The notes under the pieces are model-generated. The model ran no database searches and had not been told where the DNA came from. It saw nothing but the letters and a program-made list of their open reading frames with translations. A program made the translations under genes and the position numbers. DNA of 64,000 nucleotides, from positions 1 through 64,000 of the IMG/VR virus record IMGVR_UViG_3300033183_000058; one strand, written 5' to 3'. How positions within the stretch are numbered: the first letter of the stretch is position 1; each line of letters begins with the position of its first letter. This DNA is from a virus. Positions 3,112-51,722 of the stretch are shown one piece after another.

Positions 3112-3850
3112 GATTGTCTTTGTCTAAATCTAGATCTACTCTTTTTAATATTCTTCCGTTAAACAGTGCCTGTGTTCCGGGTTCCATATCTTTAGTTACG
3201 TATGCGTGACCATGTATTTTACAATCATCACCTACTTCTAAATGTCCACCAAATCTTCCCGTAACGATGGTAGCATTACATCCTACAAATACATTTTTAC
3301 CGCATTTAACTCCGCCTGCTACAAATCCTTTAACGCTGACAAAACTGTTCTCTCCCATGACTGCATCATGCCCAAATGCCGCATAATCTAATGCAGTAAC
3401 ATGTTCACCAAATTGAACATCGTCTCGGACGTCAACCCATCTTCCTGTGTATGACCCTTGTCCAAACGTTGCACCTTTACTTATCTTTGTATCCGGATGA
3501 ATTAACGTATGACAGGGTAAGTTTAATTTTTTAATTAATGCTAGTCGTTCTAATCTTAAATGATAACCGCTTTCCTCAGGTTTGTCTTCAATCCTGCTAT
3601 TACCGTCCCAACTATTGCCTAAGAAGAACATGGCATTACCAAACTTATGAGGATTATCAAGTAACTCTTTTTCACTGCCAATGCACTCGACACCTTTGAT
3701 TATGTGTCCAGGCTCATACATTCTATCCAAAAATCCAATAATTTTGATATTGAGAAGTTCACAGTTCTCAGTGAGGAAATCCATGCCCCATCGTGATCCT
3801 ACGAAAACTATTGGTTCTTTCTTTTTAAATTTTTTGAATATTGAAAACAT
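3074..3850 (-). CDS. NeuD/PglD-like hexapeptide-repeat acyltransferase
   Basis: A 258-aa protein with two parts. Residues 1 to about 115 look like the Rossmann-like N-terminal domain of NeuD/PglD acetyltransferases (IVFVGSRWG near the start, then IIGFLD). The rest is a left-handed beta-helix with repeated small-hydrophobic-G/N hexads (for example VKCGKNVFVGCNATIV). An active-site-type His is likely in AAFGHDAVMG. Such enzymes acetylate amino or hydroxyl groups of bacterial surface sugars from acetyl-CoA, usually as trimers. The tail after about 235 is highly charged. Its 3' end overlaps the desaturase start. It fits a sugar-modifying role beside the carbamoyltransferase. Confidence 0.8.
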   Translation of the reverse strand: MFSIFKKFKKKEPIVFVGSRWGMDFLTENCELLNIKIIGFLDRMYEPGHIIKGVECIGSEKELLDNPHKFGNAMFFLGNSWDGNSRIEDKPEESGYHLRLERLALIKKLNLPCHTLIHPDTKISKGATFGQGSYTGRWVDVRDDVQFGEHVTALDYAAFGHDAVMGENSFVSVKGFVAGGVKCGKNVFVGCNATIVTGRFGGHLEVGDDCKIHGHAYVTKDMEPGTQALFNGRILKRVDLDLDKDNHVSEDKERNNNE

Positions 3851-10510: not shown

Positions 10511-11915
10511 ACTCCTTCCACCATGCAGACATTTCTGGAAATGTCTTTAAAAAGTCAGTGCCTCTCCTTCGATCGTGTTCACTAAAGTATCTATAGAAAT
10601 CTGCTTTTTGTTTATTTTTATAGTTATCATCTAACTGTTGGCCTGATCTCATCCAAGTGATATCTCTGTCAAGTCTTTTTATTTCGTAGTCTTTAAACCC
10701 TTTAAATCTAGTTTCTTCTGTTTCATGCCACTTAACCATCCAGGCCCATAGTCTTTCTAGTTTATCAACATATGGTTCAGGCAGTAAGTCCATACGCATC
10801 CACTCAGGTGTTCTCAATATAGGTGTGTCAAACCACACACGTTGATATGTGTTTGAATGCACTTGTCTAAGTCCGTGTATACCTGCAAACAAGTTTTCAA
10901 CTGATGTAACATTTAAGTTATTCATAGTTATGATAAATGTTATGCTTGAACGTTCTGGCACTTCAAACAAGAACTGATTAACACGTTCCCATAACAGTTT
11001 AAAGTCTAGTCCATCTCTGATATATTCTGCTTGTTCGCCAAACCCGTCCACACTCACATACTGCATAAAGTGTTCTACATTATCATCTGCACATATCTTT
11101 TTAACATAACCTAAATACTTTTGCCATAGTTTTTCATCTACTGAAAAGTTTGAAGTTACATTTAAATGTAAGTCTGGTTTAGGGTTTTCTAAAACATAAT
11201 CAAATACCTTGAAGGTATTCTTGTCCATTAAAGGTTCTCCGCCTGTCATGCGGAAGTGTTTAAGTTCAGGGTAAAGATCAGGCCACCAATCCCAAAACGC
11301 AGTTAGGTATGGATTGTGTTCTCGGAAAGGTATAGGCTTTCTCCTACCCTGAAAATAGTTAGGGTCATTGTGTGGCGTTGATGTTGGCCACGCACCCAAT
11401 TCGTTTGACTCTTTCTCCCACGCTGTAGAGTATTGTGGTGAGCAGTAAGAGCATTTTAAATTACAGTTGTGATTAAAGTTAACTTCTACATAACTTGGTA
11501 TAACATCTTGATCCCAAGGTGCGTTAACTATTTCATTAAATGATTCTGCGGCCCAAGGTTCACCTGAGCGATAGTGCCTGTCGCTGAGTTTACCATTGTC
11601 TTCCATAGTCCAACAGTAACTACATTCTTCTGGGCGTTGCCCTTCTAACATCTGCTTACGTGCAGATTTCTTTTGTGCTGTATTATGTAAGGCACTAGGA
11701 TGAAACTCTAAAGGTTTAACATCTATTTCATGTAAGGGTGGATGGTAGCATGAGTTAGTCATGCCCGTGGTGAGATGTAGGCTAACCTGTTTCCATTTAG
11801 CCAAGCACATACTAGGACTTACTGTGTCTAACTGTTCTTTAGCAACTTCTGCGTCACTTAAGAACTTAGACTTAAAGTCCTTGTTTACTTCATCACCTTT
11901 ATTTTGAATAGACAT
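10485..11915 (-). CDS. radical SAM protein with variant N-terminal cluster (5)
   Basis: A 476-aa radical SAM protein and the closest relative of the gene downstream. The catalytic motif is Cys151, 155 and 158 (NCNLKCSYCS), followed by MTGGEPL. N-terminal cluster residues are Cys37 (CLAKWKQVSL), Cys56 in SCYHPPLHE, and CSYC at 98-101; again one Cys plus His replaces the Cys-Cys pair seen in copies 1-3. The shared PSALHNTAQKK stretch ties it to copy 4. It is the first translated of the five and overlaps the glycosyltransferase-like gene upstream by 17 bases. Duplication and divergence inside the operon is the simplest origin. Confidence 0.87.
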   Translation of the reverse strand: MSIQNKGDEVNKDFKSKFLSDAEVAKEQLDTVSPSMCLAKWKQVSLHLTTGMTNSCYHPPLHEIDVKPLEFHPSALHNTAQKKSARKQMLEGQRPEECSYCWTMEDNGKLSDRHYRSGEPWAAESFNEIVNAPWDQDVIPSYVEVNFNHNCNLKCSYCSPQYSTAWEKESNELGAWPTSTPHNDPNYFQGRRKPIPFREHNPYLTAFWDWWPDLYPELKHFRMTGGEPLMDKNTFKVFDYVLENPKPDLHLNVTSNFSVDEKLWQKYLGYVKKICADDNVEHFMQYVSVDGFGEQAEYIRDGLDFKLLWERVNQFLFEVPERSSITFIITMNNLNVTSVENLFAGIHGLRQVHSNTYQRVWFDTPILRTPEWMRMDLLPEPYVDKLERLWAWMVKWHETEETRFKGFKDYEIKRLDRDITWMRSGQQLDDNYKNKQKADFYRYFSEHDRRRGTDFLKTFPEMSAWWKECEQYAKKA

Positions 11916-17470: not shown

Positions 17471-18136
17471 TTAAGTGGTGCTCAAATTGGTCAATGTTTG
17501 TATTCGCACCGTATAATCAATTTGAATCTGTCTGTTCAATGACTTTTGAACAGGGTGGAATACTACGTGTGTTACCAAGTCAAGGTCTGATGTTGATCCT
17601 TGCCATGTTTTTAATCCTAATTCATCAAACACATAATCGCCATCTAGGTTTGTTGAATTATCAAAAGCCTGCTGTCCGCTAGGCTCACCATAGTCTAGTA
17701 AGCAACTTACTAAAATGTCAGTATATACTTTACCTGATGTATGTAACACTGTCAACTTATTTCGAGTAGAATCAGTGTTTGCTGATGATGTATCATCGAC
17801 TACCTTTTGATAAGTTTGATTATACAAGTCAGCATTTTGTCCTGTAACGTTTGGTGGTAGATATGTAATAACACCTGTAGTGTCTACACTTGATCCGCCA
17901 TTACCAAATGCCATTTGATAAATGTATCCTTTATCCTTGTTAGCCATTGATTGTGCTAGGCTATTAGAGAAGTTTTCATAATGGATAGCGTTACGCTTGT
18001 CTACCATAACTTCTTTAGAGTTTGGGTCAAAGATCTTTAAGTGTCCTTGAATAAGGATACCACCGTTCTCGTCTGGTTTTTTATTTTCGTCTGTCATTTT
18101 AGTTTCTTGTGTTTGTTCCATACTATATTTATCCAC
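17471..18136 (-). CDS. virion structural protein (221 aa)
   Basis: A 221-aa protein in the position between the giant baseplate protein and the fibres. A polar N-terminus (to about residue 30) precedes a beta-rich body with ILIQGHLKIFDP, YIYQMAFGNGGSS, YTDILVSCLLDYGEP and RQIQIDYTVRIQTL. Such proteins are common in marine T4-like phages as baseplate or tail structural parts. The frame opens with a GTG whose first base pairs with the stop of the giant gene. An ATG five codons later (18119-18121) follows a late-promoter motif and is an equally possible start. Confidence 0.72.
   Translation of the reverse strand: MDKYSMEQTQETKMTDENKKPDENGGILIQGHLKIFDPNSKEVMVDKRNAIHYENFSNSLAQSMANKDKGYIYQMAFGNGGSSVDTTGVITYLPPNVTGQNADLYNQTYQKVVDDTSSANTDSTRNKLTVLHTSGKVYTDILVSCLLDYGEPSGQQAFDNSTNLDGDYVFDELGLKTWQGSTSDLDLVTHVVFHPVQKSLNRQIQIDYTVRIQTLTNLSTT
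18126..18133 (-). promoter_or_regulatory. T4-like late promoter inside a gene start
   Basis: Minus-strand GATAAATA overlapping the first codons of the 221-aa gene and just after the giant gene's stop. If used, the mRNA would start near the internal ATG at 18121. Confidence 0.4.
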
Positions 18137-21100
18137 TATGAATTTTCACCCCTTAAGAACTTAGCAGGCACTGTGTTAGCATCCTGTAAACTCTTAGTAG
18201 TTCTTACAGTTGATCCATCATCTACTGTAGGTAGTTCATACAATGTTTTATTGTATGCGTAATCTAGTTTTGTTCCTAGTGATGTATCATAAACTACTGC
18301 GTCTACTGCATGAGCTGATGCACCTGTTCCTGCAACTCCTCTACGCAGTCCGCTGATAGTATTATTAGTTACATCACGTTCTCTGTATGTTATGCGTTCG
18401 CCGTCTATTGTAACAACACCAAAGATATTATTTGCTAAGTCTGGTGCTGAAACTTTTGAAGCATCTTTAAGATAAATTGTGTCAGCATCAGCTGTTAGTG
18501 CCTGTGCTAATTCTGTTCTATAATCCTTGTTGGTTCTATAGATAACATTGTTGTCTCTCATATCTTTAAAGATTGCAAAGTCTAGTGTATCTGGAACTTG
18601 TTTTTCAGTTTGTAGAGTTACTACAACTACATCGTTATCACTAACTGTTGTTGATAGGAACTCAAGAGTCTGACCGTCTGCATTAATTCTCCAATCACGG
18701 CCAAGGTATTTGCGTAGTCCGTTAACAGTTACACGTAGTCTATCTGGACGTGTAATTGTTCTATCTAAATCGTATTGACTTAGATCAGTTACTTGTCCTG
18801 TAGTTTCGTCAAACGTGGCACTGTCAAATCCTGATGCTTCTGAATCAAAGCCAACTGTTAACACTGATCCAATCGCTGTTGGTCCATTGAAACATCTTGT
18901 TAATATGTCAAGCTCACTTGTATTGTTGTCTGTTGTTACTAGAATTCTTGCACCAGTAATAGGAGCAGTGTTAAATGTAATACGATTCAATGAATCACTT
19001 ACTGGAACACCTGAGTATGATATCTTATACTCTGCTGATGTTTCAACAAAGATTTTAATATCTGCATCTGCATCTGGAACTTCGTTAAGTTCAACATATC
19101 TTATTGAACTAGCATCTGCAGGACTTAGTGTAAAGTCTTCATACAATTTAAGTTCTTTATAGTCAACAAACACATGGACATCGTTATCAGCAATTAATGT
19201 TTGGAATAGATCTTCTGTTGTTTTCCAGTTTGTTAAATTTAAATAGTATATTGCACTTGAGCCATCTGCTGTAAACTCTAATCCTTCTGCAGGTGTTAAA
19301 CGTTTACCATCTACTTCAACAACTGCTGTGTATGCGTTGTGACCTTGAATATCATTTTCTAATACAAACTCTGTGGTTGTATTATCACCATACATAATCT
19401 GTGATGTTGGGTGACTTGATGAGTGAGGTAATGATTCATCATGTGTTACATAGCCTGGAATACTTGAAGGATCTCTACCATCGTAACCAAATATAGCAAC
19501 AGCCATATAGTCACCATCTTCTAGTGGTTCAGTGCTAAACTCTTTAACTTTATCCCAATCCGATGTGCCATTGTTATCTAAATCTTGATCACCAAATGTA
19601 ATTCTTGTAGTATAATCATCTACTTCACGGAAAGTATAATTTGTTACTCTTGATCCGTTGACTTTAATCATTGCTTCGTAGATTTCATCAAATGCTACAG
19701 GAACATCAATGTAAGCGCCTTCACTTGAATCATCTATTAATATATCTCCTACATCATAGTTGTCAACCCATAGTTGATTGCCACCGCCAATACCATATGA
19801 TTCAATTCTTAAAACATCACCAACTGAAATGTTGTTGCCGTTAAATGTAATTGTTTTGTTTAACCAATCTACTGTATAGTCTACAGTATTTTCTGCAGGT
19901 GTTACATATTCAAATCTCAATGTAAGTCCTGTTGTAGCATTAAATGCTCTAACAGCAAATGGATTTTCAACTAAGTTAGCAAAACTAAATGTTGATTCAA
20001 CACCAGTATACTCAAACATTTCTGATTTAAATGGAGCACCGTGGCCATCTTCGTTGTAATCAAATCCAGGACGTGTAAACACTTTGATGTTTAATGTATC
20101 AAAGATAGAACTTGGAACTAGCTCTTCAGGTGAATGACTTGAATATGTGTCAATGTAAGCACCTCCATCAACATTGATATCACTTACCTGAGTTCCTAGA
20201 TATGTATCTGTATAGTCACCCGGAGCATACTTAGTATCCAACAGTGATGGACTGTATGTTGGTTCACCTTCGTCACCAAAGTCTAAGTTATCATATGGGT
20301 TAATATCATAATTGCCTATGTCAAAACCTGTGTTCTGGCTGTATAGAACACCTTTAACTTGAACGCCTGGATAATCAATACCTGCTATCAATAGGCCTAG
20401 ATCAATACCTGGCTCATCTACTGCTGGTGTATAATAACCTCTGGTTCTATTAACGCCTGTTAACTCATCTGCTGTTACTAATTCAAAGTCATCTGGATCA
20501 AATGTTGCACCAGAAACAACTAATGCAGAGTCATCTTCATTCTTAGCTCTGTAAACTTTGTTATTGTATCTTACTAGATCACCTGCATCATAAGTTTCAT
20601 TTGCTTCCCAGTCAACAATTTCTGATTGATATTCATATCTATCGTATTTGATTGTTGTTTTATATGAACGCACTGCACCAGGGCTAGTAATAGCAACTGC
20701 TGTTGCACCTGAGCCCGAGCCGCCTGATATTGTAATTGTTGGTGGTTCTGTATATCCTTCGCCTGCGTTTACAACTTCAATTTCAACTACTTCGCCTGCT
20801 GTGTTAATTCTTGCTTTCAACACTGCTGTAGTTGTTGCTGTGCCTGTAACAGTAACTTCAGGTGCTGTTAAGTAACCTGAGCCACCTTCTGTAATTGACA
20901 CAGAGTCAATACTCAACGAATAGTTGTTATACCATGATGTATAGTTACCTGTTGACCAAATGTTAGCAGTTGATGGGTAACTACCTACTTTGCCATCATC
21001 GCTTAGCCTTGGGCTAATAAATGTTGTTTCTACTTCATCATACTGTGCCGGTAAATCAAAGTCTGTAGCATCACCGTAGAACAATTCATCACCGTTATAT

Positions 21101-24100
21101 TTTAGAGTAAACTCTTTGATCTGAACATGATAAGGTTTAACTTCTTCAATATACTTCTCAACGAACTCTTGATTATCAACTTGGTAAATGTCGTATGGTA
21201 TTAAGTCTCTTAGAGTATGCTGTATGTCAACCAATGAAGTTTTCATTAACCAGTTAACAGCAGTTTGTTCACTCTTGATATATTCAAATGTTAAGTTAAT
21301 TAAGTCAATTCTATGATCTGCAAGATCGTCAATTAGTATTTCATCATTGATTGATTTAATAATTTGTCTAGTTTCAACGACTGGTTCTGCATCAAAATAT
21401 TGTGCGTCAAACACTTCAACATCAAAGCCGTTACGTCCTGTAGAATAATCATAAACACTAGTATTAATTGCAATAGTGCCGTCTTCTAAGCCAATACGAC
21501 TCCAGCCTGTTGCAGTTCTTTCATACAATTCAAACTTACTATCTGCATTAGCTGTAACTTTAACTATATCACCTTCAACAACAAGATTTTCAACAGTTAC
21601 TAGTCTAGAGTATGATGCTACTTCTTCCTTAGGTTTATCTAAACTTGAATAGCCCTCAGCATACCAATCAACATATGACCAATAGTTTGATGTTTTATAG
21701 TTTTGAACTCTGGTTAATAATAAAGAATCATCTGCTTGAACTTCGTAGATAGTCCATAAGTTGCCATTTGTTGAATCATTAACAACAAGATACTTGTAAC
21801 CAGTTGCTACTAATTTTAGATTTTGATAAGTTAGTTCATCGTAAGTATTAAGTTTTTTATCCCATGCACCTGACCCACTAGCAGGTGTTGCTTCTTCACT
21901 TGCTAATATATCAAGTGTTCTCATTTCTGTAATAGGATGTTCTGCAAACACTTTATTTGCTCTTGTGATATAGTTTTTCAATGCAGTGAATCTATCTTCA
22001 AACATTGATTGTCTTGGACGGAATTCTACACCGTAAGAATCTGCTTCGCTTAAGAATGGATCCGGCACTTTATTGCCAATTGAGTCAACACCTGCATAAC
22101 TGTCAACAAACTTTTTATATAACTGTGTGCTTAAAAACTCAGTTGGGTCATTTGTTTTAATTAATTCATATTCAACGTGAACATTGTTATCTGTTTTAAC
22201 TTTATCAAATTCAACATGTAAGATTCTATCTTTAGCACTTAGATATTCTTGTGAATTGTATAGTGCCAGTGTTGAACTGTCTAATGGTGTAAAGTATGCA
22301 ATACCACTTGACTTAGGATCTTCAGTATACTGTTTCATTGTTAACGAACTTAGAGTTTTACCTCGACCTACATTTGGATTATCTTTTACCCAGAAATAGT
22401 ATTTGGTTTCTATTGTTCCACTAACAGCAACGCTTGTTTTAACTACAAAGTTTTCAGTAGATAATACCTGTCCTTGACCACTATACTGTGCAGGCGGTTG
22501 TGAACTTTCTGTCCACTCATAGAACTCTGCCACAGACCCTTCAAACAGTTGTCCTAATCGTTTTGCTCTGTATTCTGAATCACCTTGATAGTAGTTGATA
22601 AATCTAATATTTTCTGTGTTCCACCATATTTTACCAACTGATTCAGCACCCCATGTTTGTCCTGAATTATTAACAGCACCTAGGTTGTATTGTGCAGGAT
22701 CTGTTGGTCCTATGATATCAATATTTTGTCTAACTGCACCAAGTATTTTACCCTGCAGTGGATCAAAGTGATCTAAGTTTGCTTTAACTTCTTTATCAAG
22801 TCTGTCATAGATAAAGCCTGTGTTAATACGATCAATATCAACTACTGATTCTTCTTCTCTGATTACTTTCCATGCAAACTCTCTATTTGGATTATCCCAG
22901 ATTGCTATTCTACCAACAGTTGATGATCCATCGCCAGCTGTGTGTCCTGGACTTGTAACAATAACTGAGCCTGACTTATAATCAACAGCATGACCAAACT
23001 CTGCTAGTTCACTGACTACAATGTCTGATATTTGTTGTCCAACCACAAATTTACCTGGGTTACTAATAATATCAGGAGCACTGCTTAGATAATCAAATGT
23101 GTAAACTGACCCGCTTTGTGTAACAACTTCTTTAATTTCGGTAGCGTTACCGTCGAATTCAGTTGTTTCTGAATCAAATGTTGTTGGTAATTGGCTAACA
23201 CCTCTTGGCGAACCAACTACTAGTGTAAGTGCATCTGAACTAACCGATAGGCTCTGACCAAATCTCGAATTATTAACCGGAACTGGTGATGTAATAGTCT
23301 GCACCGATTTAAATATTTCTAAACCTAGATCATCAAGTGCATCACTATTATCACCTGCAGGATAGACATAAAGTTTGTTTGACACTGCTCCTGCATTGAT
23401 ATTTGTTAGACTAATTGTTAGTTTGTTGTTAGTTTTTGTTGCTGTTACATTTGGTATTACAGCATCATTAATATCTTCAACAACTTGATCTAATGTTGTT
23501 CCTGTAAACTCTACAACAACGTTGTTGATTCTAATTTTCTCACCCTGTGTAACAGTTGGGTTTGCTACAGTGCCTGTGATAGTTCCGTAGAGCCTTGATT
23601 GATTAACTGCACGTTGCACTGATCCTTGTTCTGGCCCAACTAGGCTATCGTATGGTGCTGACGCATACAGTGAGCAGTTAGTTGGACATATTGTTACATC
23701 ATAACCAAACTCTGCATCTGCTGATGATTCTGTTTTTGTAACTGTGTCTAACAACATAAAGTTGTTGGTTTCAATTTCAACAAAGTCGCCTAGATTAGGT
23801 GCTGTGTCGAGTGTAACTGTGCTACCTGACAATGTATATGTTCCACCGAGGTAATGTGCTTTATTAGTTAAGTATTCACCATTGATCGAAACAGCAACTC
23901 TGCCCTGTGGTGATTTATCTGACACGTATGTTTTGTCAGTGTCATCTGTTACTACAATTCTTTCTACATCTCTGTCATAGACATAAACTTTACCTTCTCC
24001 ACCTGCTGTTCTAGCACCAACAATAACTTGTCTACCATCTGTAGTAGTTGCTAGACTATATCCAAAGTCTTCGCCCACTGACCCAACAATACTTGATACA

Positions 24101-27100
24101 TATTCAAAGTAATCACTTGAACGAACCGTTATAGTTGCACCGTCTGCTGGTGCATTTTCAAATGTAAATGTATCACTAGAATCATAACTAAAGTCAAAAT
24201 CAATTTTAGGAATTTGAACTATACCGTCAACTGTTACAAATATTGAATTAAAACCGTCTGCTGTATACAGGCCTGTAATATCAAATATTTCAGTTGATCC
24301 GTCACCAGTTAGTGTAACTGTTTCTCTTCTAGTTACTACAACAGTTTCGCCGTCGCCTGGAGCAGTGTCTAGTGTAAGAACACCTGTTGATGATACTGTG
24401 GACGTAAACGAATATTCATTTGTTTCTAATTCAACATTATTAACCACAACTACTAGTTGATCAGCGTCATCTGCTAATACAAAACCTGTTAAATCATACT
24501 GTCTAGTTGAACCATCGCCTGTTGATCTAAACTGTTGCACCTGTCTATCAACTCTTTGATAAGCATACACAGAATTCTTACCTGGTGCTGACACATAAGC
24601 CCAACGACCGTCATCTGATATTGCTACAGCATGTCCATAGTTTGCTTCATCATTAGCATCGCTTGGATTAACCATTAACTGGTGTTCAGAAATTTGATTT
24701 GAGTTTTCTTGTTTAAGAACCCAAACATATCCTTCACCGTTGTTCGATTCAGACGCACCTGCTAGTCCCCAAGTTTCATCTGCAAACGCTACGTCATTGC
24801 CGTAGCCTTCTAAGTTACTTGCTGAACTACCTGTTAGTATCGAGTTTTGTGCAAATTTATTATTAGCCGTTTCAACAAATGTAAACACAGCACCATTGCC
24901 GCCATCATAATTATCAGCACCTACTAGAGCAGTTAAATTGTTTGCATTTTGTGCTACACTTGAGCCAAAATTAGTATTAACTAGATCTTCGTCTGTTACA
25001 GTATTTTCATAAACACCGTATGGTTCAAATGAATTTTGTTTTTCAAATGGGTTTACTTTTTCAATGACCTGCCACTTATCTGAACCGTTATCATTAATCC
25101 AAACTCTATTACCTGGATCTAGTTCATTGGCAAATGGCAAATCAGCAGTGTCACTTGGTTGTGCCACTCTTACTGAATTTAACTTAAACACTACACCTTC
25201 AGATTCAACTACTGTGATATCTGCTGGTAATGATTGTAATATTGTTACTTTGTGCAGTGCTGGAACTGATTGCACTCTATAGGCAAAGTTTATTGCGGCA
25301 TCAAAGAATCTTACAATAATGATATCATCTTTGGCTAACCCATGATTGCCCTGGAATGATAATGTAGTTGTTCCATCTAAATTGTCTGTTGCTGACAACA
25401 ATGTTGGTTCAACTGTTCCTGCTCTGTATATGTTCCAATCATGGCTATTATCTTTAGCAACCCATATTGTTGTGCCTTCGCCTAGTGTTTCTAAGTATGG
25501 AGTAATTAATCCTAGATTACTTAAATCCCATGTCTGTATATCTACATCATCTGTGTTAACGTATCCTGCTGTTGATAAATTATTTTCGCTTGATACATAT
25601 TCAACTGTTGGTAAAACATTTGCTGATGTAATTTTATAACTTTGTTTATAAATGTCAGACAATATAACAGTTTGATCAACATCTGTTCTTGAATCGCTTA
25701 CTGCTAGTCCTGTTGTTGCAGGGTTTGCACTCATTAAACTTTCATCTAAACGTAGTTCATAGAAACTTCTATTTGCTGATGCACCATATGTGCCTTGTTT
25801 AACTGCCCAATTTTCTGAAACTGAATAGTCTGCTAATTCCTTAGGTAGTCTTGCTGATTTAAATAGATCAACTGCTCTATTGGTTCCTTTATTACCAATA
25901 AAGTTTTCATATACACGAACCTGACTGATGTCAGTTAGACCCATGTTAGTCATGTAGTCACGTTCACTAAAGCCCACTAAGTGGAAACCAAGTTGATCAG
26001 CATCTGTTTCTAAGTTTGCTATGTTATGATCATAGTAGTTGCGTAGTTGATCTGTTTTAAGATTTAAGTTAGGTAGTAGACCTTTCTTAATTTGATCATA
26101 TTCTGTTTCTAACCATTTTGAATAATCAAATGTGTCGCTAGGTGGAACTGATTCTGCCGCGGCATAATATTGATTTTTATATAAAACTATGTCACCTTTA
26201 GCATAGCGTTTTATGCCTGCCCATTCAACAACATTGTCAAAGTTAAATATAAAGCCTTGTGCTTCAATGTTACCGTTCCAATCACCTGTGTTGTAACCTA
26301 CAACTTTTAATCTATTCTGTCTTGAACCGGTGATTGGATCATATATTAAGTCATTAAAAATACTTGAGTTATCAAACACTAGAACATGTTCATAACTTGT
26401 CATCTTCATCTTAGCATATGATATAGCATTTTCATTTACAGTTTTAACTTCAAATTCATTTTCTTGTCGATTAAACACTAGATCACTGTTTGAAATTGCT
26501 CTAAGGTTTTGATTTAAAATAAAGTCATCTGCTGTCTGACCTGTAATTGGTGCAACAACTGTATTATCTTTTTGTAAATATAATCTATTTGCATTAGGGT
26601 TAATGTTAATCAATGAACCTGTGGTCCAGCCTTGTTGACTCCAGTAGAGGAATTCACGAATCATTTGTGTCCAGTCAAGCAAGTAAGCATTGTCTACATC
26701 ATCAAATACCATGCCTTTTGCTTCTAGGTATCGACCGTAACTTATTAAGAAGTCACACATTGTTGAGCGACTAGTAAACACATAACCATATGGTATTCTT
26801 GTAACTGCTGTTTCGTAATCACTTGAAACTCTAACAGACTCTGAACCTACTGAAATTGTTTTATAGTTGCCATTTGGAATACTTGTAAATATTTCAAAAT
26901 ATGGGTCTAGTTTTGAATTACCGTATACTGCCCAGCCATCGTCGGTTTTTTGTATAATAACTGATGAATATTCTACTGTATCAAATACTTCGTTATTGTG
27001 TAAGAATATTTCATAACTTTCGTCAGGTAATAGCAAACTTGTATTGTTTGAATTAGGTGATGTTTTTTCAGTAAAGATTTTTAAGTATTCTTTGTCTGAA

Positions 27101-30100
27101 TAACTAGCCATTCTATAGGTCAGTTGCACATCCATGTTGTCTAGTGTTTCTTCGATCGCTGTGTTAGTATCTATACCTTGTTTACGAGCATAATCTACTG
27201 ACCAATTAATGTAAGAATGTTTAGGAGTGTCTGCACCGTATATAACTAGGTCGCTGGTTGTAATTCTTGAACGACCGTTATATAAAATTTGATCTAATCC
27301 TGAATCACGTTTGTATAAATCTCTATCTGCATTTAGTGCAAAAAACTCTGCTGGTTTAGTTAATGCTAGTAAACGCATTACAGCAAATGGATATGCTGAT
27401 GACTTACGCCACGCAGATTCTACTGGGCCTTGATCACCAACTACCCAAGACTTCTTAAGACTTAGACTGTCATAGTTACCAGTCATTGTATCAAATGCTG
27501 TTTTTAACTCGCCTTCATCTGTAATAGGTAATACTGATGATAGTCCTGTTCGTTTATATTTTTCGTCTACAGTGTATGAGTCTGTGCCATCCCAGATTCG
27601 GCCTGCTTCTAAATCGTCCCAAAGAACTTCGTTGCCTGATGTATAAGGTGCTGGGCCATATTTGGTATTCCACCAACTTGGTTTTTCTGTAAAGCCAATC
27701 ATTTCCCACGGACGAACATGTGGACTATCAGTGTCATAAAAGTCATTGAATATACCTCTCCAATGTCCTAGTAGTAGTTCACCGTCTACTGTATCCTGTG
27801 CCGATGAATAGTTCCATGTCTTCTGATCATCAGCATCATAATCTTGATCTTTATAGTCAAGTCTATTCCATGCCACCCATGATAAGAAACTTGTTCCTAA
27901 TATGTCTGTGATCTCTGCCTGTGTGTAGTCTGTTGTTCTAAATTTACCTGGAGCAACATCTTGGTAGCATAATGGTATTGTATTTGTTAAATCAACTTTA
28001 ATGTTGTTGTAGATACGTTTTTCAAATTCTAATAATAAATCATCTCTAGCATCACCAAATGCTACAGTTCTTGACCCATCATGTCCAACAATTACATTTT
28101 TTGTTTCTGTATATGTGTCATCGCTGACTATTTCTGGATCGTAACGACCATACAAACCTAGTTTAGTAGGTGTGCTAGGAATATATGAACCTGCTGTCGA
28201 TTCATATTCTCTGATTACTAAAACATCACCAACTGCTAGTGTTTTTGATATATCAACTCGAGCCACATTAGCAGGAACTGTATAGTCTGTATTGTATAAT
28301 AACTGTTCGTCATTTAGGTAAACCAATAGACCTTTATAGTTTGCTTTGGTAAAGTCATAGGTCTGTGTAAGATCAAATATACTGTCATCAATTGCTGTTA
28401 CTGTGTATGTTGTTTCGGTGTAGACATCGCCACATGGTATTGTGTCTGACCAATAAAATGGCATTGAATTTTCTTTACCAGTATTAACAAATTGTATTGC
28501 TTGATCAAGTTGATCTCTTACAGTGCCTTGGAAATCATTGTTTGAAAATGCTTCGACTAGTTTCCATTTATATTTTTCATATTCTGTAGCGGCAAAATCT
28601 AAAGCCTTAAAGAAATTAATATTAGAATCACGCATAAATGTTGCGGCAAATTGTATTGGTGATCCCTGTTGAACAATTTTATTACCATAAGGAACAACAT
28701 CACCTAGATCTCTAATATTATTTTTACCTAAAACTGAGCCTGATAATTCTGTAATGTGCTGTGCTAGATCAATATAGTGATTTCTAATAGTGCCCAGTGT
28801 AATATCATTAAACGTTCCATTAACTGAATTATTTGCTAAATTATCAGGAACTTCATAAAAGCCTGCTGTTGATGCTAGGTCACTTTGTAATTTAACTACA
28901 ACATTATCTCCTGCAGTAGGTGTATAGTCTGTGCCAAATGTTACAGTGGTCTGTGTTGAGGATGTTGTATATGAATATCTACTTGGCTCTTGATAAACAT
29001 TGTTAACATAAACAATTACTGGATTTTCTACTGATGTTTTTGCAGGAACATCACAAATCAGATCAACTCCGGCCCAGGTAAATGTTAGAACTTGATACTG
29101 TATTGATTTGTTATTATGTTTTTTCCAACCTATTTCCTGATCATAGGCAGTTCTTGTTGTATAGTTATGAACAAAGCCAAAATTAATTGATTTAGTAGTT
29201 GATGTTGAATCTACAGTGTAGGTAAATGTGTCTTTTTCTAAATTATTATCAAATACAATATCGCCAACGTTGTCGATGTTTAAGTATTTTAATTTTTGAT
29301 TTAGTATAGGATCAACCGCGCCACTTCCATCTGCATAACTGAATAATTTAGTGCCTGTGAAATTTGTTGATGGATAATATGTATTATCGCCTAGACTGCG
29401 TCCATTTGAATCAAATATATCAAATAACGGTGATTGGTTTACTGATGTTTTTTGCTGTGCTTCTACCCAACTAGTGCCGTTGTATCTATATGCTTTACCC
29501 TGAAGTGTAGCACCACTTGAAAGATAAACAACTTGGTCTGTTGTTATTGATGCATCGCTGGCCTCAGTTAAATTAATAATTTTTGCAGTTGACGAAACAC
29601 CGTCTTGGTCAATTAATTCAACTTGATATATTTTATTTCTTACTTCAGGATCTAGATCATTGGCAAAAATAATTCTAGAACCTGTTACCAGACCGTAGCC
29701 ATCTGTTGAATATCCTGTCTTACCATTGACATTTGATAGTGCGTCTGTTTGATTTAAATCAATAATATCAATTTCTTCTAGTGCTTCTGTGCCATAGTTA
29801 TATAATCTTAATCCTGGTTTGAATTCTAACACAGGTCTTTTTGCTCTCAGATTCTGATCTAAGATTGCTGTGGTATTATTATATTCTGCTGTTTTTGTAA
29901 TTACATCAACATGGAACCAACGATTTGATCTTGTCCAGGCATTTTTATCTAGACTTGCACGATTAATTGTGTAGTAGTCTGCATCCTTTGGAGCATTTAA
30001 TGATTCGTCCCAAGGACTTGCGTCATATGCTGTTGAATCAAATGGCAGTGTTTCCGAATCGGTATATGTTTCTGGTGTTTTAAAATCTTCTACTGCTAGT

Positions 30101-31539
30101 AATTTAATTGCAGTGCCAACACCTTCTACATAATATTCTTTATCCTGGTATAAAGCAGGTTCTGTTGTGCCACGGAATTGAACTTTTAAGCCATTGGTAA
30201 ATTCTACACCGTTAGGGCTAGTATAAGCAGTTTTACCTACAATATCATCAACATCCAGTGTTAATTGATCAGCTTGATCAACAATTTTAATTACGCCAAA
30301 CTTAGTAGCATCATTGCCATCCTGATACCATAGTTGGTCCATGACTGCTGTTAATAGAGGTTGTTCCTCAAAGTAACCTTCTGCATTTTTCCAGAATGTT
30401 CTTGACGCATTTACTGTGCCATATTGTATTTCTACTTTTGAATTCTGTGCAACTGTCTGAATTGAGTTTAGTTTAATATAATCTCTACCATCAGGTCCTT
30501 CTACATATTCAATACGCCAAATTGAATAACGCTGTGCCTGTGTTGATATCTCTGTTTCCTGTGCATATGAATCTATATCAAAGTTAGCATTGTCAAATTG
30601 CTCAGTTCTGCGCCATCCTGATATCTCTGGATCAGTTTGCGTGTTGCGATTTAAAAAGATTAAAGTTCTACCTTCTAGATCTCTAATTTCATCAATACCA
30701 TCTGTATCTTCTAAGAAAGTGTCAACGTAACGACCATTAATTTGGTCAAATTTAAGATCAGTTGCTAGATCTACTTCGCCTAGATCAGTTAAATTAAAAT
30801 AAAAATTCTGTGCAGTTGAATCAGGAACATTAAACGTTACTGTGCCGTTATCTTCACCATTGTTGGTAACACCTAGTATACCTCTTGCTGATATGTTAGG
30901 GCTCTGTGTTAGACCACCCTGTGTTCCTGGTGATGCTTGTATCCAAAAAGGATTACCTGTTTGCCCTAGTTCAAATGTATAGTTGCCGCCTCTGACTAAA
31001 GTAATAGTTGGATTATCACCTGCTTGACCTTCAAGACTATATCCATCGTCACCTCTAGTAACTTCATAACTATCACTGGTAGCAATTTCTGTTGCTTGAA
31101 CATCAACTGAATCTGGGCCACCACTGAGCCAATAGTATTGGCTAAAGTTAACAAACTTGTCGTAGTCTATAAATGGGTCCCAGGTATAAAATTCACTTGA
31201 AAATAATCGATCGTGTCGGCTAGTATTACCACCCGCTACACCAATGGTATCAATTATCTCAGGATATGTAACTAAATCTTCAGTTTTAGTTGTATTTGCT
31301 TTTTTATATGTAACAGCTGGTTCTAATTGATAGTTAGTGCGTTCAGTATCGCTTTCTAATACATAACTGTCTGCAGGATTTACACCTAGACCATACTTAC
31401 GACCAATGTATCCTTCTACACGCTGTAGGCGTGATGGTTGAATCATTTGATCTAAAGTAGATGCTAGAAACTTTTTATTAGTCTCTGTTCTAAATATTTC
31501 AGGTAGTAGATCTACTGATCTTACTCTAGTTGTTGCCAT
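18136..31539 (-). CDS. giant baseplate wedge/tail protein (4,467 aa) with FG-GAP-like repeats
   Basis: A 13.4-kb gene, about a fifth of the window. Its N-terminus (MATTRVRSVDLLPEIFRTET, then FYTWDPFIDYDKFVNFSQYY near 110-130) matches the giant virion proteins found after gp6 in marine T4-like phages, in the place of T4 gp7. Residues about 2180-2870 hold seven FG-GAP-like repeats (NFGSS, GYGND, NYGHA, DFGYS, EFGYD, RFGQS, EFGHA, each followed by a V-G/S-A/S-P strand), which is the number in an integrin-type beta-propeller. Insert domains sit between repeats 3-4 and 5-6. Short W/Y-GD-V-Y modules near 1780 and 3645 resemble small carbohydrate-binding modules, and GGSGY repeats lie near 3550-3620. 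It shares one base (TAATG) with gp6. Likely a wedge protein with receptor- or glycan-contacting domains. Confidence 0.85.
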   Translation of the reverse strand: MATTRVRSVDLLPEIFRTETNKKFLASTLDQMIQPSRLQRVEGYIGRKYGLGVNPADSYVLESDTERTNYQLEPAVTYKKANTTKTEDLVTYPEIIDTIGVAGGNTSRHDRLFSSEFYTWDPFIDYDKFVNFSQYYWLSGGPDSVDVQATEIATSDSYEVTRGDDGYSLEGQAGDNPTITLVRGGNYTFELGQTGNPFWIQASPGTQGGLTQSPNISARGILGVTNNGEDNGTVTFNVPDSTAQNFYFNLTDLGEVDLATDLKFDQINGRYVDTFLEDTDGIDEIRDLEGRTLIFLNRNTQTDPEISGWRRTEQFDNANFDIDSYAQETEISTQAQRYSIWRIEYVEGPDGRDYIKLNSIQTVAQNSKVEIQYGTVNASRTFWKNAEGYFEEQPLLTAVMDQLWYQDGNDATKFGVIKIVDQADQLTLDVDDIVGKTAYTSPNGVEFTNGLKVQFRGTTEPALYQDKEYYVEGVGTAIKLLAVEDFKTPETYTDSETLPFDSTAYDASPWDESLNAPKDADYYTINRASLDKNAWTRSNRWFHVDVITKTAEYNNTTAILDQNLRAKRPVLEFKPGLRLYNYGTEALEEIDIIDLNQTDALSNVNGKTGYSTDGYGLVTGSRIIFANDLDPEVRNKIYQVELIDQDGVSSTAKIINLTEASDASITTDQVVYLSSGATLQGKAYRYNGTSWVEAQQKTSVNQSPLFDIFDSNGRSLGDNTYYPSTNFTGTKLFSYADGSGAVDPILNQKLKYLNIDNVGDIVFDNNLEKDTFTYTVDSTSTTKSINFGFVHNYTTRTAYDQEIGWKKHNNKSIQYQVLTFTWAGVDLICDVPAKTSVENPVIVYVNNVYQEPSRYSYTTSSTQTTVTFGTDYTPTAGDNVVVKLQSDLASTAGFYEVPDNLANNSVNGTFNDITLGTIRNHYIDLAQHITELSGSVLGKNNIRDLGDVVPYGNKIVQQGSPIQFAATFMRDSNINFFKALDFAATEYEKYKWKLVEAFSNNDFQGTVRDQLDQAIQFVNTGKENSMPFYWSDTIPCGDVYTETTYTVTAIDDSIFDLTQTYDFTKANYKGLLVYLNDEQLLYNTDYTVPANVARVDISKTLAVGDVLVIREYESTAGSYIPSTPTKLGLYGRYDPEIVSDDTYTETKNVIVGHDGSRTVAFGDARDDLLLEFEKRIYNNIKVDLTNTIPLCYQDVAPGKFRTTDYTQAEITDILGTSFLSWVAWNRLDYKDQDYDADDQKTWNYSSAQDTVDGELLLGHWRGIFNDFYDTDSPHVRPWEMIGFTEKPSWWNTKYGPAPYTSGNEVLWDDLEAGRIWDGTDSYTVDEKYKRTGLSSVLPITDEGELKTAFDTMTGNYDSLSLKKSWVVGDQGPVESAWRKSSAYPFAVMRLLALTKPAEFFALNADRDLYKRDSGLDQILYNGRSRITTSDLVIYGADTPKHSYINWSVDYARKQGIDTNTAIEETLDNMDVQLTYRMASYSDKEYLKIFTEKTSPNSNNTSLLLPDESYEIFLHNNEVFDTVEYSSVIIQKTDDGWAVYGNSKLDPYFEIFTSIPNGNYKTISVGSESVRVSSDYETAVTRIPYGYVFTSRSTMCDFLISYGRYLEAKGMVFDDVDNAYLLDWTQMIREFLYWSQQGWTTGSLININPNANRLYLQKDNTVVAPITGQTADDFILNQNLRAISNSDLVFNRQENEFEVKTVNENAISYAKMKMTSYEHVLVFDNSSIFNDLIYDPITGSRQNRLKVVGYNTGDWNGNIEAQGFIFNFDNVVEWAGIKRYAKGDIVLYKNQYYAAAESVPPSDTFDYSKWLETEYDQIKKGLLPNLNLKTDQLRNYYDHNIANLETDADQLGFHLVGFSERDYMTNMGLTDISQVRVYENFIGNKGTNRAVDLFKSARLPKELADYSVSENWAVKQGTYGASANRSFYELRLDESLMSANPATTGLAVSDSRTDVDQTVILSDIYKQSYKITSANVLPTVEYVSSENNLSTAGYVNTDDVDIQTWDLSNLGLITPYLETLGEGTTIWVAKDNSHDWNIYRAGTVEPTLLSATDNLDGTTTLSFQGNHGLAKDDIIIVRFFDAAINFAYRVQSVPALHKVTILQSLPADITVVESEGVVFKLNSVRVAQPSDTADLPFANELDPGNRVWINDNGSDKWQVIEKVNPFEKQNSFEPYGVYENTVTDEDLVNTNFGSSVAQNANNLTALVGADNYDGGNGAVFTFVETANNKFAQNSILTGSSASNLEGYGNDVAFADETWGLAGASESNNGEGYVWVLKQENSNQISEHQLMVNPSDANDEANYGHAVAISDDGRWAYVSAPGKNSVYAYQRVDRQVQQFRSTGDGSTRQYDLTGFVLADDADQLVVVVNNVELETNEYSFTSTVSSTGVLTLDTAPGDGETVVVTRRETVTLTGDGSTEIFDITGLYTADGFNSIFVTVDGIVQIPKIDFDFSYDSSDTFTFENAPADGATITVRSSDYFEYVSSIVGSVGEDFGYSLATTTDGRQVIVGARTAGGEGKVYVYDRDVERIVVTDDTDKTYVSDKSPQGRVAVSINGEYLTNKAHYLGGTYTLSGSTVTLDTAPNLGDFVEIETNNFMLLDTVTKTESSADAEFGYDVTICPTNCSLYASAPYDSLVGPEQGSVQRAVNQSRLYGTITGTVANPTVTQGEKIRINNVVVEFTGTTLDQVVEDINDAVIPNVTATKTNNKLTISLTNINAGAVSNKLYVYPAGDNSDALDDLGLEIFKSVQTITSPVPVNNSRFGQSLSVSSDALTLVVGSPRGVSQLPTTFDSETTEFDGNATEIKEVVTQSGSVYTFDYLSSAPDIISNPGKFVVGQQISDIVVSELAEFGHAVDYKSGSVIVTSPGHTAGDGSSTVGRIAIWDNPNREFAWKVIREEESVVDIDRINTGFIYDRLDKEVKANLDHFDPLQGKILGAVRQNIDIIGPTDPAQYNLGAVNNSGQTWGAESVGKIWWNTENIRFINYYQGDSEYRAKRLGQLFEGSVAEFYEWTESSQPPAQYSGQGQVLSTENFVVKTSVAVSGTIETKYYFWVKDNPNVGRGKTLSSLTMKQYTEDPKSSGIAYFTPLDSSTLALYNSQEYLSAKDRILHVEFDKVKTDNNVHVEYELIKTNDPTEFLSTQLYKKFVDSYAGVDSIGNKVPDPFLSEADSYGVEFRPRQSMFEDRFTALKNYITRANKVFAEHPITEMRTLDILASEEATPASGSGAWDKKLNTYDELTYQNLKLVATGYKYLVVNDSTNGNLWTIYEVQADDSLLLTRVQNYKTSNYWSYVDWYAEGYSSLDKPKEEVASYSRLVTVENLVVEGDIVKVTANADSKFELYERTATGWSRIGLEDGTIAINTSVYDYSTGRNGFDVEVFDAQYFDAEPVVETRQIIKSINDEILIDDLADHRIDLINLTFEYIKSEQTAVNWLMKTSLVDIQHTLRDLIPYDIYQVDNQEFVEKYIEEVKPYHVQIKEFTLKYNGDELFYGDATDFDLPAQYDEVETTFISPRLSDDGKVGSYPSTANIWSTGNYTSWYNNYSLSIDSVSITEGGSGYLTAPEVTVTGTATTTAVLKARINTAGEVVEIEVVNAGEGYTEPPTITISGGSGSGATAVAITSPGAVRSYKTTIKYDRYEYQSEIVDWEANETYDAGDLVRYNNKVYRAKNEDDSALVVSGATFDPDDFELVTADELTGVNRTRGYYTPAVDEPGIDLGLLIAGIDYPGVQVKGVLYSQNTGFDIGNYDINPYDNLDFGDEGEPTYSPSLLDTKYAPGDYTDTYLGTQVSDINVDGGAYIDTYSSHSPEELVPSSIFDTLNIKVFTRPGFDYNEDGHGAPFKSEMFEYTGVESTFSFANLVENPFAVRAFNATTGLTLRFEYVTPAENTVDYTVDWLNKTITFNGNNISVGDVLRIESYGIGGGNQLWVDNYDVGDILIDDSSEGAYIDVPVAFDEIYEAMIKVNGSRVTNYTFREVDDYTTRITFGDQDLDNNGTSDWDKVKEFSTEPLEDGDYMAVAIFGYDGRDPSSIPGYVTHDESLPHSSSHPTSQIMYGDNTTTEFVLENDIQGHNAYTAVVEVDGKRLTPAEGLEFTADGSSAIYYLNLTNWKTTEDLFQTLIADNDVHVFVDYKELKLYEDFTLSPADASSIRYVELNEVPDADADIKIFVETSAEYKISYSGVPVSDSLNRITFNTAPITGARILVTTDNNTSELDILTRCFNGPTAIGSVLTVGFDSEASGFDSATFDETTGQVTDLSQYDLDRTITRPDRLRVTVNGLRKYLGRDWRINADGQTLEFLSTTVSDNDVVVVTLQTEKQVPDTLDFAIFKDMRDNNVIYRTNKDYRTELAQALTADADTIYLKDASKVSAPDLANNIFGVVTIDGERITYRERDVTNNTISGLRRGVAGTGASAHAVDAVVYDTSLGTKLDYAYNKTLYELPTVDDGSTVRTTKSLQDANTVPAKFLRGENS

Positions 31540-34500
31540 TAAGCGACTCCACTGTTAGTTGCTGTTCTTAATACTGTTGATGTTAGTGCGTCTACCACTT
31601 CAACGTCGTTGACTGTGGCCGCATTAACAAATATTTCATTTGGTGCTGAACGAATTTCATATAAATCACCAAATGACTTTGTTGGATCACTTGGAACCAG
31701 AACAACACTTGATACAATATCACCTAGTTGTTCATGTAGATATGCTGATAATTCTGAGAAATAAAATGTATCACCAAAGTCCCATTTATCAATTGTAAAA
31801 TATTCATTCATTGCTTCAATTACACGTGATTTAATTTCACTGGTTGAAGTAATTACGCCCTGATACTTGATAACTTTAATTGTTGCCTGTAGTTCGCTGG
31901 CACTCTTTGCACCAAATAGTGGTTTAAATTTAACAGAATTCATAATCATGTTGTCACTCAACATCTTATAATCCTGTAGTCCTGCATAAGCAACTGTTAA
32001 TTCATCAATGGTAGGTCTTGTTGGTTCTGTAACTTTGCCAGTTGTATCATTAATCCAGTTTTGATATGCTGTATAGTAAGCATTAGTTGCCAAATATAGA
32101 TCAACAATGTTGGTAATCGCTGGATCAATTCTATGTCCATCACCCGAATTATGTTTATAATGGAAATATAAATTCTGTCGACCTGTTTTTGCTTCGTAGT
32201 CTGTGGTCTGTGTCAGTGTATATGTCGTGCCTGACACTGTAAGTTCATAAAACTTTTCATCAGTTATGCCATAAAATACTTGTCCGTCTAGATATTCTGT
32301 TTTTGCTAGTTCCATAGCATCTAGATCAGCATACAGTGTATTAACAACTCCACTGGCTACTGGCACATATCTTTCTAGGTTGTCAAAGTCTGTAGTTTTC
32401 TGCAGGAATACTTTTTTAGTTGCGGCATTTACTGTTGGCGCCACAATGTCCTTAAAGATGTCTGGGTTATCTGCTACACCATCTGCATCTGAGTCTGCAT
32501 AACTCACTAATACTTTAAAGTTGTCAATAAATCCATCTGTTTCAACTGTTTGACCAACAACATCTAATTTAATATCTGTTGACAGTGCTGAATTTGAATC
32601 AGGTTGTGAATTCATTTTAATAACATTTACAAAGTCATTGACTACTTTACCAGTAGTAGCGTCATAAATGTTGTCATTGTCATCATAGATAAATCTATTT
32701 TCTGCTACTGAAGCAAAATAATAATTTAAATTACGATATTTTACTGTATAGGTAGTGCCATCTGTGGTAAACTGTGCTAACCATGATGCATCTCTCTGTA
32801 GTCTGTCTGTGTTTTTAGCATAACTTAGGCTAAATTCAGCATCTTCGTCTAGGTTGTCTGCTGAAATAATATACCAGTCACCTGTTTGATTATCGAAGCC
32901 TATACCAAAGTCTCTATAAAGTTCAACTTGCTCAATCATTGATGTTTCAATTGAGTTTGGAATGTCTGTTACAAACACTGGAATTATTTCAGTGACATCA
33001 GCACCTGTTGGTAAGAAGTCATTTAGTGTTACAGGACCAGATCCATCGCTTAAATTACCGTCACCAAAGTTAGTGCCGTCTCCTGTTAAACTTGTCACAG
33101 TTGCCCATACAACTAATTTCTCATCAGCACCTGTTGGTGTGCCTGCTTTTAATTTATTATTACTATCAAAATAATATCCTGTTGGTGCCTCGAATTTAAT
33201 TAATGCACCGTTGACAATGTATTTTGTATTACCCGAAGCAATTTCTCCAACTGATATTGGATTACCAGCGGCATTTTTAAAATAACCTGTTGACTGATTA
33301 GTTGTTGTAGTTGACTGTTGCCATAATATGTCTGTTGATGTTAGATCAATTCTAGCAAATTTATCATTATAAAAATGACGCATACTGCGATCTGCTAGTT
33401 TAGGCTCTAGTGTGTTTACAATAGCACTTGAAATATCATTAGTGTCAACAAAGGTAAATGTAAAGTTTGGATCAAGATATTCTTGATATATCATGCCGTC
33501 ACTGCAGAATGAATTAGTAGATGAATATTTGCCTGTTGGATCTAATAAATCCAAATATCTATTAAGACCAATACTTGATCTGCCAACTGCTTTTGATTTT
33601 AATATTGATGTATACTGTGTGTATGGGAAGTTATTGTAGTCTTCACCATTGACCATTCTATTCTGTGTATAGAATCTAGCAGGAGCTCTAGTTTTAATTT
33701 CATCTAGTGTTTCTCTTGCTTTGGCATTTGTTACAGGTTCTTGTAAGCCAAGTGTAAATATAATAGTTTCGTTTCTGCCATTACGTGATGTATATGGTAA
33801 GCTCACTGTCACTGATTGAATTTCGTTTGGATTAATTACATATTCTAAACCATTTGAAGTTCTTAGATATGTTCTATATGTGCCTACAGGTATTTTTGAA
33901 AATACACCATCACCAAAATTAATTGTAATAGTATCATTAGCACCTGACTCCACTGAATAAACTGTTCTTTGTTGTCCGTCTACTGAAGGTGTAGCACCTA
34001 CACCATAAATTGAATCTACTTTAGTCCATTCAGTTAATAAATTATTTTCAACTTCAAATAACCACACGTCTGAATTATTAACACCATCTATAGCAACGTC
34101 AACTTCTCTGTTTGAAATGCGTTCACCTAGATTAAATTGTTGATTAACTAAACTACCTTGTTTGAATAGGAAGAAGTAACCAGTATTTGCTGAGCCATAG
34201 CCTAGTTTATCGTTACGATAAAGAACATTCATTTGTCCATCGGGCTGTGGTGCTGGTTCATAGATATATGTTTTGTCTGCTGATGTTGCTGATGTTACTT
34301 CAAATGTCATACCTACGCCATCTACAGTAGCATCAAAAGGCACAACTGGCAAATAACCAGAAGTTACATTTAATTCATATTCATCTGTTTGCACACCTAG
34401 TAGACTTTGACCGTGACCTGGACGACCATAACGTTGACTACTGACCATAGCGGCATTCATAACAGCATTAAATTGCTCAAACCAATCACCATTGGTAGCA

Positions 34501-34937
34501 TCATTCCAACGCACTGTTACACCTGATAAATTTAGACCATTGTAGTCAGTAACTGATTCAGTAGTTGATACTGCTGTAACTTTAATATAGCCCTGTGCGT
34601 TTTGATTACGTTTAGGTTTATATCCAACTAGCTCTGCTAGTTTAACTACTGATTCTCTACGCTCTGCTGTGTCAATAAAGTTTTCACGTGCATTTAAGTC
34701 ATTGCGGAAAGCAAGACCTTGTCCCATAAAGGACATAAGATCTAATAGAGCAATAAACTCACTGGATTCAATAAAGTCATTGAATGTCTCAGGATAATAT
34801 AATCTGAGATAGTCAACCATTGACTTTCTTAGAGTCTCGTAGTCGTAACTTTGTAGGTCTGCTTCACGGAAAGTCTGATATAATCTCTTCCAGTCCTCCG
34901 CTCCAAATATTGCTGTTTGTCTAGTAGTTTTCGCCAT
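31539..34937 (-). CDS. gp6: baseplate wedge protein gp6
   Basis: A 1,132-aa protein whose N-terminal 120 residues (DLQSYDYETLRKSMVDYL, ESSEFIALLDLMSFMGQGLA, FIDTAERRESVVKLAELVGY) are the hallmark of T4 gp6/gpJ-type baseplate proteins, which form the iris ring of the baseplate wedge. The C-terminus has the usual FYFSELSAYLHEQLGDIVSS region. It is much longer than T4 gp6 (about 660 aa) because of beta-rich insertions in the middle. It lies next to gp25, as in T4-like phages, and shares a base with the giant downstream gene. A GATAAATA late promoter is 21 bases upstream. Confidence 0.93.
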   Translation of the reverse strand: MAKTTRQTAIFGAEDWKRLYQTFREADLQSYDYETLRKSMVDYLRLYYPETFNDFIESSEFIALLDLMSFMGQGLAFRNDLNARENFIDTAERRESVVKLAELVGYKPKRNQNAQGYIKVTAVSTTESVTDYNGLNLSGVTVRWNDATNGDWFEQFNAVMNAAMVSSQRYGRPGHGQSLLGVQTDEYELNVTSGYLPVVPFDATVDGVGMTFEVTSATSADKTYIYEPAPQPDGQMNVLYRNDKLGYGSANTGYFFLFKQGSLVNQQFNLGERISNREVDVAIDGVNNSDVWLFEVENNLLTEWTKVDSIYGVGATPSVDGQQRTVYSVESGANDTITINFGDGVFSKIPVGTYRTYLRTSNGLEYVINPNEIQSVTVSLPYTSRNGRNETIIFTLGLQEPVTNAKARETLDEIKTRAPARFYTQNRMVNGEDYNNFPYTQYTSILKSKAVGRSSIGLNRYLDLLDPTGKYSSTNSFCSDGMIYQEYLDPNFTFTFVDTNDISSAIVNTLEPKLADRSMRHFYNDKFARIDLTSTDILWQQSTTTTNQSTGYFKNAAGNPISVGEIASGNTKYIVNGALIKFEAPTGYYFDSNNKLKAGTPTGADEKLVVWATVTSLTGDGTNFGDGNLSDGSGPVTLNDFLPTGADVTEIIPVFVTDIPNSIETSMIEQVELYRDFGIGFDNQTGDWYIISADNLDEDAEFSLSYAKNTDRLQRDASWLAQFTTDGTTYTVKYRNLNYYFASVAENRFIYDDNDNIYDATTGKVVNDFVNVIKMNSQPDSNSALSTDIKLDVVGQTVETDGFIDNFKVLVSYADSDADGVADNPDIFKDIVAPTVNAATKKVFLQKTTDFDNLERYVPVASGVVNTLYADLDAMELAKTEYLDGQVFYGITDEKFYELTVSGTTYTLTQTTDYEAKTGRQNLYFHYKHNSGDGHRIDPAITNIVDLYLATNAYYTAYQNWINDTTGKVTEPTRPTIDELTVAYAGLQDYKMLSDNMIMNSVKFKPLFGAKSASELQATIKVIKYQGVITSTSEIKSRVIEAMNEYFTIDKWDFGDTFYFSELSAYLHEQLGDIVSSVVLVPSDPTKSFGDLYEIRSAPNEIFVNAATVNDVEVVDALTSTVLRTATNSGVA

Positions 34938-34991: not shown

Positions 34992-35366
34992 TTACTGGGC
35001 TAAAACTGTATTTTTATTTTGATCAAAAAATAAGGATAAACGTTGAACTTCTGTGGTAGGTAATACTGTAACATCAAGTTCTATTAGGACTCCGTTTTCC
35101 TGAGGATATACTGTTTGTCTTTCTAATTTTACTCTAGGGTCTTGTTCAATGGTTCTACGTAGTTCTACTTCAATGTCTTGCATGACTTCATCTGTCATTG
35201 GTTCAAATATTATGTTCCATATTGAAGTGCCGTAACTAGGATTACCAGGTTTTTCTCCCTGTTTAATTAATAGACTGTTGAGAATATCTCGTTTAACTAA
35301 TTCGTAGTCTTCTAAACGAAATTTCTTTTCTTGTCCAATTGTATTAAATCCGTAGTAGGTTGCCAT
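34992..35366 (-). CDS. gp25: baseplate wedge protein gp25
   Basis: A 124-aa gp25/IraD-type protein, a structural part of the wedge that also primes the sheath in contractile tails. The diagnostic features are LVKRDILNSLLIKQGEKPG, the YGTSIWNIIFEPM motif and EVELRRTIEQDPR. Length agrees with T4 gp25 (132 aa). It stands between gp5 and gp6, the usual gene order in marine T4-like phages. Despite the old lysozyme name of the family, it is a structural protein. Confidence 0.95.
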   Translation of the reverse strand: MATYYGFNTIGQEKKFRLEDYELVKRDILNSLLIKQGEKPGNPSYGTSIWNIIFEPMTDEVMQDIEVELRRTIEQDPRVKLERQTVYPQENGVLIELDVTVLPTTEVQRLSLFFDQNKNTVLAQ

Positions 35367-49761: not shown

Positions 49762-49797
49762 ATGTTAGTGCTACAACTCTTTTAGAAAGGAAACATA

Positions 49798-51362: not shown

Positions 51363-51365
51363 AAG

Positions 51366-51397: not shown

Positions 51398-51417
51398 AGT
51401 AGGTTTATGCTAGAGAC

Positions 51418-51651: not shown

Positions 51652-51722
51652 GTAGTATTACCTCCTAAGAAGCCACGCCCTAGTTTATCATCTTCACCAC
51701 AAAACTTTGGTGCGTGAAATAG

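Follow-up and report, generated by a model that had tools for sequence, protein, structure and literature searches.

Does a giant protein encoded among the baseplate genes of a virus carry a propeller of the integrin type, and what would such a domain do at a phage tail tip? The question is raised by a gene in the window analysed here, i.e. a stretch of 64,000 nucleotides that is part of a virus record of 73,853 bases (IMG/VR record IMGVR_UViG_3300033183_000058).

The giant protein and its gene

The open reading frame, whose coordinates are those of the first-pass annotation (Table 1), starts with ATG and has no internal stop. Its product matches phrog_10938 ('virion structural protein') with 1032.5 bits over a conserved core, in four stretches, and its BLAST blocks are collinear. 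The homologue of phage PA5oct is annotated as a virion component detected by ESI-MS/MS. Gp53-like, hub/lysozyme-like, gp25-position and gp6-like genes are followed in the window by the giant gene. This order is broadly that of phage T4 (53-5-6-7-8), which puts the giant gene in the place of gp7. Homologues stand at the same place, after a gp6-like gene, in PA5oct, Atu_ph07, Phosso, 121Q, RaK2 and XaC1. The 'wedge protein' of the first-pass annotation agrees with the position after a gp6-like wedge gene, but homology to gp7 was not detected by profile comparison, and the name 'wedge' rests on gene position. The E-values for T4 gp7, 0.075 and 0.16, are not significant (hhalign), and the model of the C-terminal core found no confident PDB match.

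Two side observations concern annotation. A PA5oct-like homologue of the giant protein is annotated as chitin-binding type-3. The window also holds, at 6315-11915 (minus strand), 785-2278 (minus strand) and 48068-49180 (plus strand), four overlapping radical-SAM genes (one SPASM), a nearby carbamoyltransferase gene and a further radical-SAM gene. The radical-SAM genes give weak matches to viperin models (pVip), which may reflect only the shared radical-SAM fold. Surface components of the host or the virion are possible targets of modification by their products, which are encoded next to tail genes.

Table 1. Features of the giant gene and its neighbours (window coordinates)
Feature	Residues	Position	Strand	Basis
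Small baseplate wedge gene, gp25 position		34992..35366	-	phrog_261, phrog_43 baseplate wedge subunit
gp6-like baseplate wedge gene, directly upstream of giant gene		31539..34937	-	phrog_10646, 948 bits; Gp6-like_1st weak
Giant virion structural protein, phrog_10938 family	4,467 aa	18136..31539	-	ORF; phrog match; PA5oct homologue in virion
Conserved core N	1111-1945	25705..28209	-	kept in PA5oct, 121Q, RaK2, Atu_ph07, SCTP-2, Phosso, Vibrio 2.275, XaC1
Pre-propeller domain	1985-2162	25054..25587	-	HMM matches in propeller-less phages
Predicted seven-bladed integrin-type propeller with inserts	2163-2895	22855..25053	-	AF2; integrin alpha match
Blade 1	2191-2235	24835..24969	-	repeat; strands A-D in model
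Blade 2	2246-2290	24670..24804	-	repeat; model
Blade 3 with insert	2301-2485	24085..24639	-	repeat; model
Insert, C-D loop of blade 3	2335-2474	24118..24537	-	model; second half resembles PF03906 Phage_T7_tail
Blade 4 with insert	2492-2601	23737..24066	-	repeat; model
Insert, C-D loop of blade 4	2530-2585	23785..23952	-	model
Blade 5 with insert	2611-2749	23293..23709	-	repeat; model
Insert, C-D loop of blade 5	2650-2740	23320..23592	-	model; resembles flagellin/hook IN motif
Blade 6	2760-2837	23029..23262	-	repeat; model
Blade 7	2848-2895	22855..22998	-	repeat; model
Conserved core C	2903-3500	21040..22833	-	model pLDDT 85; no confident PDB match
CBM_5_12-like chitin-binding-type motif	3644-3665	20545..20610	-	Pfam, 27.2 bits (cut-off 26.2)

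A seven-bladed propeller of the integrin type

Seven repeats had been proposed at about residues 2180-2870. A repeat search found seven repeats of the FG-GAP_2 type at residues 2188-2872, starting at 2188, 2243, 2296, 2489, 2606, 2755 and 2844. The whole giant protein matches Pfam FG-GAP_2 (PF14312) in three stretches with 28.2 bits (cut-off 23); single repeats in a six-frame search scored lower (18.9 and 16.4 bits). Among relatives, 39 of 40 match FG-GAP_2 at E <= 0.01.

The structure prediction that had been proposed as a check was carried out with AlphaFold2 on residues 1946-2960 with 78 sequences. It builds a confident seven-bladed propeller, each blade made of four strands (mean pLDDT 86, pTM 0.83, propeller mostly above 90). 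The best PDB matches of this model are integrin alpha heads, which come first in Foldseek (E 2e-11) and superpose by VIA-align with a Z-score of 40.1 and an rmsd of 2.5 Å over 350 residues at 18% identity, covering residues 2163-2893. In a search that does not use the model, of a sequence profile against PDB sequences, eight of the nine matches below E 0.1 were integrin alpha chains (best 5.6e-4); the single propeller sequence gave only chance matches (phmmer against the PDB). At the level of a predicted structure, the presence of a seven-bladed FG-GAP_2 propeller of the integrin alpha-head type in the giant protein is thus confirmed.

The likeness to integrins does not extend to the calcium-cage motif. 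The repeats of the window belong to the bacterial FG-GAP_2 type and lack the integrin calcium cage, whose motif D-x-[DN]-x-[DNS]-G-x-x-D occurs in 2 of the 1,209 repeats but not in any of the window's seven. The calcium binding suggested by the first-pass annotation is thus not supported. A calcium-dependent integrin-like adhesin is accordingly highly improbable, even though integrin alpha heads match the structure best.

Is the number of blades conserved? Core queries retrieved more than 590 relatives from IMG/VR, of which the best 80 per query were taken, so that the sample leans to the queries. This yielded 197 distinct inserts, each flanked by the two conserved core blocks. Built from the seven repeats of the window, a repeat HMM gave about 850 matches in 133 real inserts and one in shuffled inserts. 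Seven repeats were detectable in 139 of the 197 inserts, six in 36, eight in two, four in one and none in 19; seven and six are thus the counts of 139/178 and 36/178 propeller-bearing inserts, bearing in mind that the HMM was trained on the same family and that a weak second repeat explains several of the sixes. A random repeat number among homologues, which had been named as an argument against a propeller, was therefore not found. Inserts make the blade spacing very variable among relatives, but seven remains the number, as a closed propeller demands.

In the window protein, the inserts follow blades 3, 4 and 5 (about 140, 56 and 91 residues), all in C-D loops. The two earlier placed between repeats 3-4 and 5-6 are both present in the model; the third, after repeat 4, had been missed. 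The blade-3 insert resembles the N-terminal domain of T7 tail fibres (PF03906) and is the fastest-evolving part among near kin. The likeness of the blade-5 insert to the flagellin/hook IN motif was noticed by eye, PF07196 being matched in only one of 40 relatives (E 0.0027). These data show that the propeller keeps to about seven blades, and that extra domains emerge only from the C-D loops of blades 3-5. In a propeller, the C-D and A-B loops lie on one face, and the opposite face, formed by the D-A and B-C loops, is the ligand face of integrins.

A cassette in a slot of variable content

A profile built from the two flanks alone, without the propeller, runs through the junction in PA5oct and in one propeller-less relative (L176), with few extra residues. 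Since the flanks are near-contiguous in these two proteins, the propeller is a clean cassette, from residue ~2165 to ~2894. The pre-propeller domain is common to propeller-less relatives. The propeller occupies one site in most sampled uncultured relatives and was present in none of the eight cultured phages tested. In a tree of the conserved core, a single clade (UFBoot 100, SH-aLRT 98) unites all but one of the 19 propeller-less proteins, among them those of all eight cultured phages examined; in this tree, which has no known root, gain and loss of the propeller are indistinguishable. When 50,697 phage records were searched with the window propeller itself (tblastn), nothing matched at 1e-3; with sequences of divergent relatives as queries, the matches in PA5oct-like phages, Atu_ph07 and Phosso were confined to the core flank.

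The nineteenth propeller-less protein (L313) sits inside the propeller-bearing part of the tree. At its propeller site (L313:6657-8306), a YHYH domain (E 2e-29) precedes a stretch with matches to tail-fibre families. Another relative has YHYH and FG-GAP repeats together in the slot (L181:12653-16561). The contents of these two slots differ, which indicates that the site takes different modules. The profiles matching their YHYH cassettes include baseplate wedge families of other phages. The propeller is thus shown to be inserted as a single cassette, and the slot content of this giant baseplate-associated protein to vary by lineage among T4-like jumbo phages.

Possible functions of the propeller

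The reading that we favour, and consider plausible, is that the propeller is a putative accessory head for adhesion or docking at the tail tip. The peripheral baseplate would be built by the core of the giant protein, and the propeller would project from it as a rigid head. The face formed by the D-A and B-C loops of the propeller may contact a glycan or protein of the host surface, or else a fibre, and the C-D inserts, on the other face, would pack against the baseplate or fibres; such a head would act in adhesion or docking without calcium. Adhesion is favoured by the baseplate-side position, by the exchange of the propeller for YHYH and tail-fibre-like modules in L313, by the propellers known in phage receptor-binding proteins and by the D-A loops, which are the most variable (2.58 bits, versus 1.78 for the A-B loops). 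Against this last point stands the tendency of propeller loops in general to be variable. What weakens adhesion is that propeller conservation among near kin is close to that of the core: the blades are 85% identical, compared with 85-87% for the core, and 67% compared with 69%. A hypervariable receptor domain is thus not supported among near kin, only the blade-3 insert being fast. That propeller-less phages manage without the propeller also counts against an adhesion head.

The same conservation is what the main rival would expect, namely a purely structural spacer or docking hub that holds neighbours such as side fibres in the baseplate without host contact. Position and blade number are conserved in a large clade, blade identity is near that of the core among near kin and the inserts resemble phage tail structural modules (PF03906). 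Yet the propeller is missing from a whole clade having the same core, and L313 has a YHYH/tail-fibre-like cassette in its place; a hub would be harder to lose or to swap, and we regard this explanation as rather unlikely. An enzyme degrading glycan or capsule, like some propeller-fold tail proteins, has a precedent in phage endosialidases of this fold (PMC4901313), but the nearest fold is the non-enzymatic integrin head, the window protein has no hydrolase family match in Pfam and no enzyme occurs among the top structural matches listed, which makes it improbable. Its fixed slot in most wild relatives, together with its absence from the eight cultured ones examined, makes the propeller a promising candidate for a head with which the tail tip grips the host. 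An idea put forward more tentatively, with slightly less than even confidence, is that one large branch of T4-like jumbo phages, nearly all of them uncultured, may use an integrin-type seven-bladed head, part of the giant baseplate protein itself, as a constant host-adhesion organ, in a swappable slot that holds YHYH/tail-fibre-like modules or almost nothing in other lineages.

Comparison with known systems

Phage tail propellers are already known, and so are separate integrin-like proteins encoded by jumbo phages. In the literature searched, no paper links FG-GAP to a baseplate, a tail fiber or a jumbo phage, and for FG-GAP with bacteriophage no title or abstract concerns phage tails. Nor did that literature describe a giant baseplate protein in which a propeller whose blade number is conserved is embedded at one precise site. 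As a defined, expressible domain, the propeller comes with natural empty-site and swapped-cassette controls for host recognition by jumbo phages, and its distribution indicates that cultured phages under-represent the way tail tips are built in wild lineages.

Within the phrog_10938 family, 121Q, RaK2 and PA5oct share the core and the gene order, but the cultured members examined lack the propeller. The S-CBWM1 'baseplate wedge protein' was rejected as a BFVD relative (weak, TM ~0.1; genome without FG-GAP_2 match). In the Sinorhizobium jumbo phage Phosso (PV764938.1, L344), two adjoining giant genes (48338-57826 and 57900-68978, ~3,160 and 3,690 aa) are rich in FG-GAP_2 repeats, and two stand-alone propeller genes lie beside MazG.

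Propellers occur in receptor-binding or peripheral baseplate proteins of phages, such as the seven-bladed propeller of PhiKZ gp131C at the baseplate periphery and the five-bladed receptor-binding protein gp45 of phi11 (PMC4901313). These are likewise tail-tip propellers proposed for host recognition, but by description they differ in blade number or family and are separate fibre or receptor-binding proteins. Stand-alone integrin-like 'hemagglutinins' are known from rhizobial jumbo phages related to the window virus. AP-J-162 gp213 was reported to be similar to human integrin 3VI3 (PMC11242549). Together with Atu_ph07 gp320, it is an integrin-like propeller from a jumbo phage of the same broad group (BFVD match), but both are separate proteins of ~375-395 aa that are not nested in a giant baseplate protein. 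Atu_ph07 gp320 adjoins genes annotated as tail sheath, and the giant baseplate protein of Atu_ph07 has no cassette.

With the integrin alpha beta-propeller (PF01839 FG-GAP), the predicted phage domain shares the seven FG-GAP blades, the fold (Z 40) and the insertion of domains into the propeller. It differs in that its repeats are of the FG-GAP_2 type without calcium cage, its insertions lie in the C-D loops after blades 3-5 and are not an I domain, and the propeller is part of a virion protein. Since phage core lies on either side of it, the domain is not classified as an integrin, although its mode of action may be that of the integrin fold.
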